A DNA stretch of 64,000 nucleotides from Centipeda artemidis DSM 19719 (GTDB lineage Bacteria; Bacillota; Negativicutes; Selenomonadales; Selenomonadaceae), in contig NZ_AUFU01000012.1 of the NCBI RefSeq assembly GCF_000426665.1, forward strand, positions 1-64,000. Direction: 5' to 3'. The notes beneath the pieces were generated by a model. The model searched no databases. It was not told the DNA's origin and was given only the letters and a program-made list of their open reading frames with translations. The position numbers and the translations under genes are program-made. The stretch's first letter is position 1; every line of letters starts with the position of its first letter. Shown here piece after piece: positions 53,412 through 62,028 of this stretch.

Positions 53412-54071
53412 CTATGCCGACGGCCAATCAATCACGTCGAAAAGCTCGTCAAAATTACTTCCGCGCAGAGGCAGATCCGATTTGGAAAAAATAGTCTCTC
53501 TAATTTCGATGGAAACCGTCGCCCTCTTCACCGTGTATCGATGATAAAGCGGTTTTTGCCCGGACTTCAAACGCGCAATCATGTGCGCCCGGCAATATTC
53601 GTTCGCGTTCAGGAAGCCGTAAACATCTTCTTTTTTCTTAAAATCCGCAACACGTTCGAATCCCATCGTGTCGCAGATAAATTTTTCGGAGGATTGTCCT
53701 GTAAAGTCCTTCGCGTGAAGGCAGGCAACATATTCGAAATTCGGATTGTTAAGGATGATGAAACAAGGAATCCCCCTCTTTTTGTTCTGCTGCCTGCAAT
53801 AGTCAACCAGCTCTTCAAAAGCATGTGCCTCTCCGACATTCGAGGTAATACGGTCTCCATCGACAATCATAAACCGTGCAACGCAGTTTACTTGTCCTTT
53901 CGTCTTAAGCTCATTAAGAAATGCCGCATAACCGCCGCCCTTCATATTAATCGGACAAAGTGCGATTTCGACACCTTGTCGTGTTCTCATCCCGTCAATG
54001 TAGTGATATTCGGTATCGCCTTCACAAAAGATCTCGAACCGTTTGCGCAGGAGCCGTTTGGGTCTACTCAT
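53412..54071 (-). CDS. rloB: RloB/AbiLii-type TOPRIM-like protein
   Basis: 219 residues. FEIFCEGDTEYHYIDGM near the N-terminus is the RloB motif (acidic residue after a beta-strand, as in TOPRIM folds), and FMIVDGDRI (DxD-like) and FEYVACLH follow. It pairs with the ATPase at 54064, a gene order seen in RloAB and AbiLi/AbiLii abortive infection systems. Nuclease activity is inferred. GGAGG lies eight bases before the ATG at 54071, inside the ATPase gene's end; overlap of eight bases shows coupling. A second frame start (TTG 54086) is less likely. Confidence 0.8.
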   Translation of the reverse strand: MSRPKRLLRKRFEIFCEGDTEYHYIDGMRTRQGVEIALCPINMKGGGYAAFLNELKTKGQVNCVARFMIVDGDRITSNVGEAHAFEELVDYCRQQNKKRGIPCFIILNNPNFEYVACLHAKDFTGQSSEKFICDTMGFERVADFKKKEDVYGFLNANEYCRAHMIARLKSGQKPLYHRYTVKRATVSIEIRETIFSKSDLPLRGSNFDELFDVIDWPSA

Positions 54072-55233
54072 CGGCAGTGCCTCCAAGGATTCCCTTCATA
54101 TAAAATTCGTAGATTTTCGTTGTGCCGTAGCGAATCTCCGGAAAATCTGCCAGTGAGTAGATCTCAGAGTTCAGATTTTCTCGATTTTTCGTAATGAAAT
54201 AAATCTGCTCTTTCATGTAGGTAGTGAGGTTGAGATGTAGGACGTTATGCGTTGTAAAAACGAACTGCCCGTGATGTTCTTTTCCGCTCATATAGGCAAT
54301 GATACGGTCGGACAGCACGGGGTTCAGCACACGATCCATCTCATCCGCAAAGATTATTTTATCCTCGTAGATGACGCGGAAAATTTGTATTGCCCATGAA
54401 AAAAACTCTTTCACGCCGGAAGAATCCATATGAAGTTCTCTTTTGTAAGTACGATGTTCCTTGTCCTCGCGCACAATCATCGTCTTACCGTACGGATTCT
54501 CCTCATCAAGCTCGATGCGCAGAATGCTGTAATCGACCATCCGCAATATATCTATATACCGTGGATCCTGCAAAATCTCAATCTCCGATGCACGTCCGGC
54601 AGGGCTTTTCCGTTCGTCGTCCAACGATACAACCGATAGGCGGTGCGTCATCCAATCCAGCAAAATATTCGCCGATGCATCCCCCAACAAGGCTAATTTT
54701 GTAACAAACAGACCTGCTTTTTGTTTATTCCCCTGAAGAATTAACGGGTAATCGGCCGGCGCACTGCCTTGAAATAGTTCCATGTCACCGCGACGTAAAT
54801 ATTCTAGGATGATATGCTCGCGGGATTTACGCTTTTCACGTTGATAGAAGCCTTCCGAAACAATCCCCCTGCTGTCAAGAATTAATCGATACCGAAAAAT
54901 CTGCGTGCCATTGGGTGTAAATTCCAACTCGAAAAATTGCTCCGCATTTTTTTCCTCTCGCAAGGCAGACACATTCACATAGGGGGACACCGTTTTGACG
55001 ATCGTATTTTCAATAAAGAGCGACTGCAAAAACATGAGGCTGCGGATAAAGTTTGATTTTCCCCCCGCATTCTCGCCGACTATTACCGCCGTCTTGAGGG
55101 GATGTGTGCCGCATTCGGCAGTATTGTAATTGCCGGGGTAGCGCCGCAGCACCTTGCCGGAGGAAGCGTTCAACGAAAAGAACCCTTGCCCCTGAAAGGA
55201 GCAAAAGTTACTGAAGCTATAGTTTAAGAGCAT
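54064..55233 (-). CDS. rloA: RloA/AbiLi-type AAA ATPase
   Basis: 389 residues of the AAA_15/AAA_21 (OLD-like, ABC-type) ATPase group. Walker A is VIVGENAGGKSNFIRSLMFL near residue 55. The signature region and Walker B IIFADEMDRVLNPVLSD are near residue 300, followed by QFVFTTHNVLHLNL (His switch). The N-terminal SFSNFCSFQGQGFFSLNA is the usual start. In AbiL and PARIS-type systems such an ATPase senses a phage trigger and controls a partner nuclease. It lies alone with RloB; no restriction genes are near. Confidence 0.82.
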   Translation of the reverse strand: MLLNYSFSNFCSFQGQGFFSLNASSGKVLRRYPGNYNTAECGTHPLKTAVIVGENAGGKSNFIRSLMFLQSLFIENTIVKTVSPYVNVSALREEKNAEQFFELEFTPNGTQIFRYRLILDSRGIVSEGFYQREKRKSREHIILEYLRRGDMELFQGSAPADYPLILQGNKQKAGLFVTKLALLGDASANILLDWMTHRLSVVSLDDERKSPAGRASEIEILQDPRYIDILRMVDYSILRIELDEENPYGKTMIVREDKEHRTYKRELHMDSSGVKEFFSWAIQIFRVIYEDKIIFADEMDRVLNPVLSDRIIAYMSGKEHHGQFVFTTHNVLHLNLTTYMKEQIYFITKNRENLNSEIYSLADFPEIRYGTTKIYEFYMKGILGGTADE

Positions 55234-55410: not shown

Positions 55411-56916
55411 TTAGTACAGTCCGAACGGGGCTTCGCTCAGGCTGATGTAGATGTTCTTCGACTGGGTATATGCGTCCATGATGACCTTGTGCGTCTCGCG
55501 CCCGATGCCGGATTTCTTGTAGCCGCCGAACGGTGCGTGCGCGGGGAGCTGATTGTAGGTGTTGACCCACATGCGCCCGGTCTCGACCGCCTGTGCGACG
55601 CGGAAGGCTCGATTGATGTCCTTCGTCCAGACAGCGCCGCCGAGTCCGTACTCGCTGTCGTTCGCCATCTTGACGACCTCCGCTTCGTCGTGGAACTTGA
55701 TGAAGCAGACGACGGGTCCAAAGATCTCTTCGCGTGCGACGCGCATGTCGTTCGTGACGTCGGCGATGATGGTCGGCTGCATGAATGCGCCGCCTTCGAG
55801 CCCCGCACCCTCGGCGCGTGCGCCGCCGCAGACGATGCGTGCGCCCTCTTTCTTTGCGATGTCGATGTATTCGAGACTGTTCTTGAGCTGGTGCGTGTTG
55901 ATCTGCGCGCCGATCTGCGTCGCATCCTCCCACGGGAGACCAACCTTCACCGCTTCGAATTTCTCCTTGACTGCCGCGAGGAATTTGTCATAAATCGTGT
56001 CCTGCACGAATACGCGCGATCCGGCACAGCAAACCTGCCCTTGGTTAAAGAGAATACCGAGGCAGACGCCCTCAACCGCCTTTTCCCACGGCGCATCCTC
56101 GAAGTAGATGTTCGCGGATTTGCCGCCGAGCTCGAGCGTCGCGGGGATCAGGCGATCCGCCGCCGCCTTTGCGACGTCGTAGCCGATCTCGGTGGAGCCG
56201 GTGAAGGCGAGTTTTTTCAGCCCTTCGTGCTCGAGGATGTAGTTGCCCGTCGTGGAGCCGCGCCCGGTGACGAGGTTGAACACGCCTGCGGGCAGGAGGT
56301 CTTTGATGATGTCCGCGAGGGCGAGCACGCTGAGCGAGGTCTCGCTCGAGGGCTTAAATACGATGCAGTTGCCCGCGGCAAGCGCGGGGGCGAGTTTCCA
56401 CGCCGCCATGAGGAACGGGAAGTTCCACGGGACGATCTGTCCGACGACGCCAAGCGGTTCGCGCAGAACGATAGAGAGTGTATTCTCGTCGATCTGCGAT
56501 GCGGTGCCCTCTTCGGCGCGGATGACGCCCGCGAAGTAGCGGAAGTGATCGCTCGCGAGGGGAACGTCGACGGCGCGCGTCTCGCGGACGGGCTTGCCGT
56601 TGTCAAGACTCTCGATGTAGGCGAGATCTTCGGCGTGCTCATCGATTCGGTCGGCGATCTTCAGCAGAATATCAGCGCGCTCGGCGGGGCTCGTCTTCTT
56701 CCACGCGGGGAACGCCTTCCAGCCCGCCTTGACCGCCTTATCGACGTCCGCCTTCGACGCCTCGGCGCAGACGCCGATGATCTTGCCCGTGGCGGGCGTC
56801 GTCACTTCGTACGATTTCTCGCCCTCGGCGGCGATCCATTCGCCGTCGATGAAGAGCCCCCAGCAGGCGCGATAGCTGCCGTTTTTGATTTCTTCTGCGA
56901 TTTTGCTCAATATCAT
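55411..56916 (-). CDS. Aldehyde dehydrogenase, NAD(P)-dependent
   Basis: 501 residues of the ALDH superfamily. Motifs: PWNFPFLMAAWKLAPALAAGN, FTGSTEIG, LELGGKSANI (general-base Glu) and FNQGQVCCAGSR (catalytic Cys). It resembles the AldB/betaine-aldehyde group and probably oxidises aliphatic aldehydes. The ATG at 56916 has AGGAAAG upstream; an in-frame GTG lies directly before it. Neighbours give no pathway. A terminator follows and the upstream region to 57100 is AT-rich with no gene. Confidence 0.92.
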   Translation of the reverse strand: MILSKIAEEIKNGSYRACWGLFIDGEWIAAEGEKSYEVTTPATGKIIGVCAEASKADVDKAVKAGWKAFPAWKKTSPAERADILLKIADRIDEHAEDLAYIESLDNGKPVRETRAVDVPLASDHFRYFAGVIRAEEGTASQIDENTLSIVLREPLGVVGQIVPWNFPFLMAAWKLAPALAAGNCIVFKPSSETSLSVLALADIIKDLLPAGVFNLVTGRGSTTGNYILEHEGLKKLAFTGSTEIGYDVAKAAADRLIPATLELGGKSANIYFEDAPWEKAVEGVCLGILFNQGQVCCAGSRVFVQDTIYDKFLAAVKEKFEAVKVGLPWEDATQIGAQINTHQLKNSLEYIDIAKKEGARIVCGGARAEGAGLEGGAFMQPTIIADVTNDMRVAREEIFGPVVCFIKFHDEAEVVKMANDSEYGLGGAVWTKDINRAFRVAQAVETGRMWVNTYNQLPAHAPFGGYKKSGIGRETHKVIMDAYTQSKNIYISLSEAPFGLY

Positions 56917-57099
56917 CACTCTTTCCTAAGAATACTTATCCAAATGTTCTTTTATTATAGTGCAACCGGGATTCCTTTTCAACACTAATTGAAAATATTT
57001 TTCATTTGTTACGATTTTCACAAACAAATTTGATTCAGGTAAAACTGTGTATTTAATTCTTCCTATTTTGAAAATCTCCTTTATTTTTCTTTCCGGCTA

Positions 57100-57127
57100 T
57101 TGACAATTTTCTAAAATTTGATATACT
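57100..57127 (+). promoter_or_regulatory. Consensus promoter of the large RNA
   Basis: TTGACA (57100-57105), a 16-base AT-rich spacer and TATACT (57122-57127). Start near 57134. No ribosome site with an ORF of useful length follows within the next 590 bases. Confidence 0.85.
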
Positions 57128-57133
57128 GAAATC

Positions 57134-57722
57134 AGTAAAGGAGCCTGTAAAAGGAAGCCTGATTCAGGACAGGCAACCCGCCCGTATGAACCGTAAACAT
57201 ACGGTGCGCAGCTCCGGGATTTTCCCACAGTGTTGACCAACGATTCGTTGTGTGTGCGGGATTCAGTCGATGTCACGGTAAGAGCCGCGGGTGCGGCACA
57301 CATCGGCTGCGTCCCCGACGGGCTGGGAGGAGATTCCAATGGGATATTGAGCAGCCGTACAACTCCCCGCAGCGGGGGTGCATGATCCTTCCGTGGAAGG
57401 GCGGATCGGATGTACCGGGCAACGCATAAGAGGCGGCAGGAGGACGCGGCAGTCCGCTGGGGCGGATGCAGCGGCGAACGGGTGCGCCGCGTGAGAACGT
57501 GTCACGCGCGGAGGAACCTGAGGGTCAAGCGCACAATGAGGTTCGCCACCGCGGTTTTACCGCGGTTCGTAAGGTTTTCGTGAGGAAAGTTCCCCGGCGC
57601 ATGCTAGCGGCGATGAGGAACGAAGCAAAGGACGTTTGGATGCAAGAGAGTTTTCAATCACTTCCCGTATTTTCCGCATAACCGCCGCCGGGTGACGAGA
57701 AAGCCCGCCGGCGGTTTTGTAT
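57134..57722 (+). ncRNA. Candidate large structured noncoding RNA
   Basis: About 590 bases between a consensus promoter and a strong terminator, with no credible protein gene on either strand. Hairpins read directly: CCGTATG/CATACGG (57182-57204), CAACG-ATT-CGTTG (57238-57250), CCCCGC-A-GCGGGG (57365-57377), GATCC...GGATC with CCTTCC/GGAAGG inside (57384-57407), GCGTGA/TCACGC (57488-57508), GAACCT/AGGTTC (57514-57543) and a CCGCGG hairpin (57549-57565). Repeated single-stranded GAGGAA-type segments lie between. It is too long for 6S or SRP RNA. I could not match tmRNA or RNase P signatures. Families of similar size (OLE, ROOL, GOLLD) are the natural comparison. Confidence 0.6.
57679..57722 (+). 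terminator. Intrinsic terminator of the large RNA
   Basis: AACCGCCGcCGGG...CCCGCCGGCGGTTTTG: a stem of about 12 bp with TTTTGT, a strong Rho-independent terminator. Confidence 0.85.
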
Positions 57723-57812
57723 TGCAAAATTTTATCTAGTTCCGTTGACATTAATTTTCCCCTTTTCTTAGATTTTCCCGGGTTTATATCGTAGAAAAGT
57801 CCTAATAGGCGT

Positions 57813-57838
57813 TTACTTCCCTTTTTTCTATGTTATAA
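57813..57838 (+). promoter_or_regulatory. Promoter-like sequence before a gene remnant
   Basis: TTTACT and TATAAT (57833-57838) lie about 16 bases apart, directly before the remnant at 57854. Confidence 0.4.
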
Positions 57839-57853
57839 TGTGCCCCGCTTTCC

Positions 57854-57961
57854 ATCGTAGACGCCGGGTTCTCCAATATCGCTGAAGGGCTGGGGCTTGT
57901 CGTCTTTATCGGGCTGCTCTTATATTTTGGAAAAATCGTACGGGGTGAGAAAAAAGCATAA
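57854..57961 (+). pseudogene. Remnant of a membrane protein C-terminus
   Basis: An open frame of 35 codons reads IVDAGFSNIAEGLGL..., followed by a hydrophobic helix (VVFIGLLLYFGKIV) and RGEKKA, then stop. It has no start codon. It looks like the end of a membrane protein whose front has been lost. A promoter-like sequence lies directly upstream. Confidence 0.4.
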
Positions 57962-58035: not shown

Positions 58036-58541
58036 TTATCCCCGCGGCAGTTTTGACAGCAGGAAGCGCAGGAGAATGTAGGCGGCGATGCTGCCCGCGC
58101 CCGTGGAGATGAGGAACGGGACGATGTAGACGGTGTAGCTCGCAGGCGAGAGTCCCATGAGGAGCGCTGCGACGGGATAGGCGGCGAGCGCGCCGAGAAT
58201 GCCCGTGCCGAGTGCTTCGGCGATACAGGTCAGCCCAAGACGGTGCGTATAGCGATAGACGATGCCGCAGACGAGCGCGCCGACCATGCTGCCGGGGAAC
58301 GCCATGAGACTGCCCAGCCCCGCGATGTTCCGCAAAAGGCTTGCGGAAAAGGCGACGCCAACACCCCATAGAGGTCCTAGGAACACGGCGGCAAGGATAT
58401 TGACGAGATGCTGTACGGGCGCGCAGCGGCTGCCGAGCACGGGGAAACTGAACACGCCGCCGAGGACGGCGATCGCGACGAGGATGCCCGCAAGGGTGAG
58501 TTTTCGTGTGGGTGTGTCAAATATTATTTTTCCTTTCGCAT
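58036..58541 (-). CDS. thiW: ThiW, ECF-type thiamine-precursor transporter S component, with apparent frameshift at its start
   Basis: The protein is recognisable as ThiW (CAPVQHLVNILAAVFLGPLWGVGVAF...GSLMAFPGSMVGALV...ISTGAGSIAAYILL). The open part reaches upstream to TRKLTLAGILVAIAVLGGVFS, the first helix, but no ATG/GTG/TTG starts it. ATG 58541 is out of frame by one base; an extra A in the A5 run (58527-58531 on the plus strand) would give MRKEKIIFDTPTRKLTL. GTG 58455 is open but lacks the first helix and a ribosome site. The 3' end overlaps no gene. ThiW supplies the S component to a shared ECF transporter. Confidence 0.8.
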
Positions 58542-58567: not shown

Positions 58568-59377
58568 TCAGGACTGGATAAACGCGCTCTTTAGATCAAA
58601 GGTATGCGCCATCGGGCCGTGCCCCTTCCCGAGGTTAAGTCCCGCCGCGAGCGCGCCCGAGAGGTACTCCTTCGCGCGGGCGACCGCCGCGTCTATGTCC
58701 ATGCCGTACGCAAGATTCGAGGCGATTGCACTCGAGAGCGTACAGCCCGTGCCGTGCGTGTTCTCCGTCGCGATGCGCCGCCCCCGGAACCACCGTGCAC
58801 CCGCAGCATCGACGAGCAGATCGTTCGCATCATCCACTGCGTGCCCGCCCTTCATCAGCACCGATGTCCCGTAATCCGCATAGATTTTCGCCGCCGCATA
58901 CTCCATATCGGCGGTATTTTTGATGTCCATCGCGGCGATCACCTCTGCCTCGGGGATGTTCGGCGTGATGAGATCGGCGCGCGGCACCAGTTCTTTGCAA
59001 AGCGCATCAACCGCCTCCTCAGCGATGAGCCGCGCGCCGCTCGTTGCGACCATCACGGGGTCGAGGACAATGTTGCGTGCGCGGTACTCCGCAAGTTTCT
59101 TGGCAATCACGCGGATCAGCGCCGCATCCGCGACCATGCCGATCTTAACTGCATCGGGCGGGATGTCGGTGAACACGGCATCGATCTGTGCCGCGAGGAA
59201 TGCGGGCGGCACGGCGAGGATGTCCGTCACGCCCTTTGTGTTCTGCGCCGTCAGCGCAGTGAGCGCACTCATGCCGTAGACGCCGTGCGCCGTCATCGTC
59301 TTGAGATCCGCCTGAATGCCCGCCCCGCCGCTCGAGTCGCTGCCGGCGATGGTGAGGACCGTGGGTTGTTGGTACAT
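58568..59377 (-). CDS. thiD: HMP kinase / HMP-phosphate kinase
   Basis: 269 residues, ribokinase fold. N-terminal TVLTIAGSDSSGGAGIQADLKT is the ThiD signature; SVLMKGGH and TENTHGTGCTLSSAIASNLA close the active site. It phosphorylates HMP twice for thiamine synthesis. AAGGAG lies eight bases before the ATG at 59377. It lies between thiM and thiW in the same direction, so it belongs to the salvage operon. Confidence 0.95.
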   Translation of the reverse strand: MYQQPTVLTIAGSDSSGGAGIQADLKTMTAHGVYGMSALTALTAQNTKGVTDILAVPPAFLAAQIDAVFTDIPPDAVKIGMVADAALIRVIAKKLAEYRARNIVLDPVMVATSGARLIAEEAVDALCKELVPRADLITPNIPEAEVIAAMDIKNTADMEYAAAKIYADYGTSVLMKGGHAVDDANDLLVDAAGARWFRGRRIATENTHGTGCTLSSAIASNLAYGMDIDAAVARAKEYLSGALAAGLNLGKGHGPMAHTFDLKSAFIQS

Positions 59378-59560
59378 GGTTTCATCTCCTTGAATATGAT
59401 GCGTTTTTCCCTCGCGTTGTTTTATTTTATGCGGCGGAACACGATGCGCCGCCATGCAGGATCCGTCACACAGAACTTTCGTGCCGAAGAGGTGTCTGCC
59501 GCAGCCATTTTTAAGCCCCGCTTTTTTGGCAAGGCAGATACCGGAACGGTGATACAAAAT

Positions 59561-61855: not shown

Positions 61856-61892
61856 ACAAAAACGCAGCCATGCCAAGAGACATAGCCGCGTT
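61856..61892 (-). terminator. Riboswitch-controlled terminator
   Basis: On the minus strand AACGC-GGCTATG...CATGGCT-GCGTT followed by TTTTTGT forms an intrinsic terminator downstream of the TPP aptamer. TPP binding would favour it. Confidence 0.75.
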
Positions 61893-61903
61893 CGACTGCA
61901 TCG

Positions 61904-61993
61904 GTATATCCCTACGTTGGCATTACCCAAATCAGGTTGCGGGTCGGGACGCACACGTCCCCTCTCAGCCGCCTCGTGGCAGCTCCCCTTTAT
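61904..61993 (-). promoter_or_regulatory. TPP riboswitch (thi box)
   Basis: On the minus strand the conserved GGGGAGCTGCC...GGCTGAGAGG segment is followed by ACCTGATTTGGGTAATGCCA and ACGTAGGGA. This is the classic THI element (CUGAGA and ACCUGAU...GGNUAAUGCCNRCGUAGGGA). It is about 70-75 bases upstream of the cytX start. Control should be by transcription termination. Confidence 0.97.
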
Positions 61994-62028
61994 ATTATGG
62001 AGAAAATACTCCAAGCACCGGCTGCCGG

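Follow-up and report, generated by a model that had tools for sequence, protein, structure and literature searches.

What is encoded at positions 57100-57722 of a 64,000-nucleotide stretch of Centipeda artemidis DSM 19719 DNA (hereafter the window)? A sequence-only reading of the locus had proposed a large structured noncoding RNA of about 590 nt, enclosed by a consensus promoter and a strong terminator, with no plausible protein and no match to a known family. Is this RNA real and conserved, does it belong to any described family, and how might it act?

Gene layout and conserved fold

The locus has the layout of a free-standing RNA gene, with a promoter, about 585 nt without a conserved ORF, and a terminator hairpin (Table 1). 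The proposed length was right, and both enclosing signals hold up. The promoter is close to the sigma-70 consensus, and its -35, its -10 and much of its spacer are kept across the genus in an alignment of 14 copies; from its position the start site is predicted at about 57133-57135 on the forward strand. The terminator hairpin at 57677-57719 is real and covaries (16 pairs, 4 of them with double changes); a simple terminator scan missed it, probably owing to its 9-nt loop. In the relatives the RNA is 538-569 nt long. Judged by these signals, the gene is probably transcribed on its own. As a side observation, conservation in the promoter region (57100-57139) reaches past the hexamers into the spacer and the start region, and an ACTAT...ATAGT inverted repeat lies there in many relatives, a possible operator or 5' hairpin.

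Table 1. Coordinates of the RNA gene, its structural elements and the adjoining remnant of the transporter gene
Feature	Position	Strand	Remarks
Sigma-70 promoter, TTGACA-N16-TATACT, TG ahead of -10	57100..57127	+	11/12 consensus match; hexamers invariant in 14 genomes
RNA gene body, about 585 nt	57134..57722	+	14/14 genomes; fold and covariation; no conserved ORF
P1, GGAGC (57140-57144) with GCTCC (57211-57215); closes the domain holding P2 and P3; seals SD-like AAGGAG	57140..57215	+	
P2 hairpin, GCCTG-ATTCAGGA-CAGGC; invariant loop containing CAGGA	57157..57174	+	Helix 1
P3 hairpin, 8 bp	57181..57205	+	Helix 2; double changes in 5/8 pairs, strong covariation
Central domain, long interrupted helix around CACAGTGTTGACC ... 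GACGGGCTGGGAGGAGATTCC	57217..57338	+	Helices 3-8
Long-range covarying arm GGCGAAC/GTTCGCC with variable sub-arm within	57473..57547	+	Helices 16-17
Conserved 3' domain, source of model R1	57549..57656	+	Helices 21-25
Hairpin with covarying stem and 9-nt loop ATGCTAGCG; palindrome GCTAGC (57603-57608), candidate kissing-loop dimer site	57589..57621	+	Helix 24
Near-invariant tail TCACTTCCCGTATTTTCC ahead of terminator; predicted to pair back to central junction	57657..57676	+	
Intrinsic terminator hairpin and T-rich tail	57677..57722	+	Helix 26 of consensus model
Surviving promoter of deleted OPT gene, TTTACT-N16-TATAAT; outside RNA	57812..57839	+	Same context upstream of OPT in 11 relatives
OPT C-terminus remnant, about 38 codons, rest of gene deleted; outside RNA	57845..57961	+	17/38 identical, 27/38 similar to a relative's OPT C-terminus

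Could the RNA be the mRNA of a small protein behind a conserved structured leader? The Shine-Dalgarno-like AAGGAG(G) conserved near the 5' end would suit such an mRNA. However, this strand is paired in P1 with compensating changes, and although ORFs of 50-80 aa exist within the RNA, none keeps its position, frame or sequence over the 14 species, in agreement with the earlier view that the locus holds no plausible protein. A small-protein mRNA is thus highly improbable.

Then is the RNA really structured? Taken alone, the window copy folds mildly better than chance (z -2.1 with the terminator, -0.9 without it). These single-copy values are modest, and the case for the RNA therefore rests on comparison. 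From the 14-copy alignment (A2), RNAalifold gave a largely consistent multi-branched model of 26 helices, and 92.7% of cells pair in the consensus fold. Both sides have changed in 44 pairs, a count that none of 500 shuffles reaches (shuffled value 21.6±3.1), and once the partners are slid, 37-45% of cells pair and 6-21 pairs have double changes, both controls leaning in favour of the model since RNAalifold picked the structure from the same alignment. In a covariation screen that uses no predicted structure, the top three stems are all present in the model, and the best-scoring one is the GGCGAAC/GTTCGCC arm. The strand of the RNA is fixed by an excess of G·U cells (298) over A·C cells (73), and the sense strand folds 20-48 kcal/mol better in every copy.

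Several parts of the model deserve comment. P1 was misaligned by MAFFT and its covariation was read by hand; it changes between clades as GGAGC/GCTCC, GGAGCC/GGCTCC, GGAGAACT/AGTTCTCC and GGAGA/TCTCC. The central domain is the best conserved part of the 5' half. Long invariant blocks of the alignment are GTGTTGACC, CTGGGAGGAGATTCC.ATGGG, the palindromic loop discussed below, and TTCCCGTATTTTCC. The RNAalifold runs disagree on the partner of the near-invariant 3' tail, which has alternative predicted pairings that exclude one another. A pseudoknot screen gave no well-supported extra helix; a possible pairing of 57256-57261 with 57672-57677 (GCGGGA/UUCCGC) varies in one clade only. Covariation supports conservation of the fold in all 14 species, far above the shuffled and slid controls, and the model suggests that the RNA may fold into a compact multi-domain particle. 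Thus the proposal of a structured RNA stands, and from the aligned sequences 57134-57722 is almost certainly a real structured RNA gene.

Distribution and relation to known families

How widely does the RNA occur? With one genome per species as the comparison set, it is present as a single copy, with promoter and terminator, in 14/14 sampled species of the oral Selenomonas/Centipeda genus. BLAST placed the element, promoter included, at one site in each of the 13 other genus genomes, with 68-75% identity where the full length aligns and otherwise in two or three pieces, and found it absent from the sampled other genera of the family. An exact-pattern scan of GTDB species gave as carriers Selenomonas sp. 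F0473, S. noxia, S. infelix, S. flueggei, S. massiliensis, S. felix, S. sp. FOBRC6, oral taxon 892 and Centipeda periodontii. A Haloferula pattern match in the same scan is due to chance, and the R2 model described next gives no match there.

Two covariance models were used, R1 built on the 3' domain (57549..57656) and R2 on the 5' domain, and both recover all 14 genus members. No credible member was found by R1 in 137 other genomes of the family or in 396 non-genus genomes of the phylum sample, nor by R1 and R2 in 366 other genomes of the class; about 750 distinct non-genus genomes were covered overall, as genomes recur between searches, and the large searches were more strictly filtered. A less filtered R2 search of 36 non-genus genomes of the family gave only scores of 13-16 bits, which are chance matches, and an unfiltered R1 search around homologues of the OPT transporter (see below) gave no match. 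Two phylum-level R1 matches, which scored 24.7 and 23.4 bits with a per-genome E of about 0.008 in a search of 398 genomes, are at chance level and come without an R2 match. Weak R1 matches in the genus g46 correspond to the 3' end of a flavodoxin-like gene and its terminator, and lack the 5' domain. In another Selenomonadaceae genus (loci L041, L042 and L043, 1501-1577), the terminator of a flavodoxin-like gene is followed by TCATTTCACGTATTTTCC, a sequence similar to the RNA tail TCACTTCCCGTATTTTCC; this was judged to be chance. Plasmids, phages and viral contigs were also searched, with no match to the RNA. Thus the search for covarying homologues succeeded within the oral genus, where covariation is strong, and yielded no credible covariance-model copy in other Selenomonadaceae genera. 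Judging from these sequence searches, the best explanation is that the RNA is vertically inherited and specific to one genus of oral Selenomonadaceae.

Does the RNA belong to any described family? At the gathering threshold, Rfam matched nothing in the whole window except a TPP riboswitch at 61892-61998, and the RNA locus was without match. With E<=10 the best matches within 56900-57900 are plainly chance, and with E<=1 the loci of four homologues gave none. The models of OLE, GOLLD, ROOL and raiA match neither the window RNA (gathering threshold or E<=10) nor the homologue loci (E<=1), and the RNA has no match to the Csr/Rsm families or to known ribozyme or sRNA families. The earlier claim of no known-family match therefore survives the Rfam check at permissive E-values, for the RNA and its homologues alike. 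A divergent RNase P, prompted by GAGGAAAGU, is ruled out: the class A RNase P of this genome lies at G000:C2:43899-44241 (309.8 bits) and none was found at the locus. 6S RNA has no match at the locus either, a sub-threshold candidate lying elsewhere (G000:C1:532687-532839, 38.4 bits). No report of the RNA was found in the open-licence literature, and the passages found of a 26-genome and a 50-genome ncRNA survey do not mention it. The best reading is that the RNA represents a new family, one that appears to fit neither the sequence nor the structure model of any described family; no proven new mechanism is claimed, and large structured RNAs without known function are themselves a loosely known group.

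Two other loci of the window may be noted here. The TPP riboswitch is on the minus strand, near the thiamine genes ThiW (58036-58455) and phosphomethylpyrimidine kinase (58568-59557). Also on the minus strand, a gene pair at 53412-55233 consists of an AAA_21 ATPase (54064-55233) overlapping a 224-aa ORF (53412-54086); this ORF looks RloB-like, and the pair is possibly of the two-gene RloA/RloB type.

Neighbouring genes and probable action in trans

Does the RNA act on its neighbour? In 12/14 genomes an OPT oligopeptide transporter gene lies downstream on the same strand, and in 11 of these it follows the RNA directly. The terminator of the RNA precedes OPT, an arrangement that a giant cis-acting leader or attenuator of OPT would have. 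However, in the 11 relatives where the two are directly adjacent, OPT has its own TATAAT promoter past the RNA terminator. The RNA is intact in the window despite the reduction of OPT to a remnant (the same genome has a complete OPT copy on a different contig, G000:C12:2441-4447), it is kept in the genome G013, where OPT is about 92 kb away, and it is absent from the OPT loci of other genera. A supposed empty cyclase-OPT site in a sister genus was rejected, as the upstream gene there is not the cyclase. The upstream neighbour also differs: it is an aldehyde dehydrogenase gene in the window and in G013, and elsewhere a cyclase, MqnE-like, SemiSWEET-like, altronate dehydratase-like or peptidase-like gene (these names are based on the sequences themselves and not on a family search). 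Because OPT has its own promoter and is lost or distant while the RNA stays, and because the upstream genes differ, the RNA very probably acts in trans and not on its neighbour, and a cis-acting leader is very unlikely.

Then what might an RNA acting in trans do? One possibility is a sponge like CsrB, in which many GGA motifs sequester the translation regulator CsrA, and CsrA binding is the strongest specific rival to the reading developed below. GGA is the most enriched trinucleotide over the 14 RNAs (19-26 per RNA against 13.6-18.7 expected; pooled z 9.9) and AGGA is about doubled, while RNase P of the same genome has no GGA excess. In the predicted fold, 46% of GGAs are fully unpaired against 26% for all trinucleotides, with 8-14 fully unpaired per RNA; 2-4 per RNA lie in hairpin loops, among them the invariant P2 loop AUUCAGGA. 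Another loop, at alignment columns 448-453 (GUGGAG, GCGGAU and similar), has retained GGA in 12/14 copies over a stem that changes. CsrA is encoded in 14/14 genus genomes, which permits a sponge. Like CsrB, CsrC and RsmZ, the RNA is free-standing and terminator-ended, and carries many GGAs, some in hairpin loops. However, it is larger than these RNAs, with a conserved multi-branched fold and no match to the Rfam Csr/Rsm families; its long GGA-free conserved stretches and elaborate branching exceed what a sponge needs, and many of the GGAs pair with UCC, which is also enriched. Firmicutes are not known to have an sRNA of the CsrB/CsrC/RsmZ type. The host also has FliW, adjoining CsrA in the window's genome; FliW is a protein antagonist of CsrA in, for example, Bacillus subtilis and is absent from the Gammaproteobacteria that use Csr sRNAs (PMC7652899). 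On balance a CsrA sponge is unlikely.

The RNA might also be catalytic, or it might be a regulator of antisense type whose conserved strands lie exposed and pair with mRNAs. The large conserved core has invariant unpaired or junction strands, such as the P2 loop and the GAGGAAAG junction, that could serve in either role, but no known ribozyme or sRNA family matches, and single copies at a mostly stable site speak against a mobile intron. We give this alternative the same low standing as the sponge.

A palindromic loop and comparison with large RNAs

The reading we prefer draws on the hairpin loop of helix 24. Its GCTAGC is invariant in 14/14 copies while the flanks and the stem vary with compensation. 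GCUAGC is self-complementary and occurs once per RNA, and CTAG is three-fold depleted in the window (18 observed vs 55 expected). Within the loop, the six-base palindrome has two bases before it and one after it, which is the layout of the HIV-1 dimerisation loop. As a 9-nt loop around an invariant palindrome, it resembles the dimer-forming kissing loops of OLE, GOLLD, ROOL and HIV DIS. In OLE, GOLLD and ROOL the RNA copies associate through symmetric kissing loops (PMC12286853). By chance, 1 in 64 conserved loop windows of 6 nt would be palindromic, and with about eight such windows the chance becomes about 1 in 8 by a rough count. The palindrome never varies, and therefore offers no covariation proof of dimerisation.

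If the loop works as its likeness suggests, the exposed GCUAGC in the 3' domain would pair with that of a second RNA copy, and the paired copies would form a homodimeric scaffold, made of RNA or of RNA and protein, comparable to OLE, ROOL and GOLLD. From sequence and analogy, self-association through this loop falls a little short of an even chance; its partner may instead be a protein or some other RNA. Homodimer formation would be the most likely specific feature of the RNA.

How does the RNA compare with the known large RNAs? OLE RNA is about 600 nt and ROOL RNA about 580 nt. Like OLE, the window RNA is a free-standing structured Firmicute RNA of similar size, and like ROOL, it combines such a length with a complex secondary structure. 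The OLE homodimer forms partly via a symmetric palindromic kissing loop, and ROOL has a complex secondary structure, a symmetric kissing loop (L18) and no described function (PMC12286853). Unlike OLE, the window RNA is without an OLE Rfam match, is confined to one oral genus, carries its palindrome GCUAGC in the 3' domain, within a 9-nt loop, and neighbours OPT, MqnE, cyclase or aldehyde dehydrogenase genes. ROOL occurs in phages and prophages, whereas the window RNA is chromosomal and single-copy, has no phage, plasmid or viral-contig match and no ROOL Rfam match, and is flanked by metabolic genes. GOLLD is large and structured, assembles partly by kissing loops, and is often longer than 800 nt and phage-borne (PMC12286853); the window RNA is likewise large and structured, but has no GOLLD Rfam match and is not phage-borne. 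With about 585 nt, and 538-569 nt in relatives, it exceeds the 500 nt used as the size criterion for OLE, GOLLD and ROOL. The raiA motif, a monomer of about 205 nt (PMC12286853), is also a conserved structured Firmicute noncoding RNA, and differs in size and by the lack of an Rfam match. We tentatively suggest, with less than even confidence, that the RNA is a new class of large ornate bacterial RNA, forming kissing-loop homodimers or higher RNA-only or RNP particles, in a single diderm Firmicute genus and not phage-borne. The best overall reading, to which we assign about an even chance, is a free-standing, genus-specific large structured RNA that acts in trans, probably as a self-associating scaffold.

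What does the finding mean? Very few non-ribosomal RNAs of bacteria combine a length above 500 nt with an elaborate conserved fold, and for three of these RNAs recent structures revealed unexpected RNA-only particles (PMC12286853). The present RNA is a concrete candidate for a new Rfam family. An independent family from a human oral genus, for which 14 diverged sequences and a dimer site open to testing are at hand, would offer a new case in which to ask what makes bacteria retain RNAs of this kind and whether many of them self-assemble.
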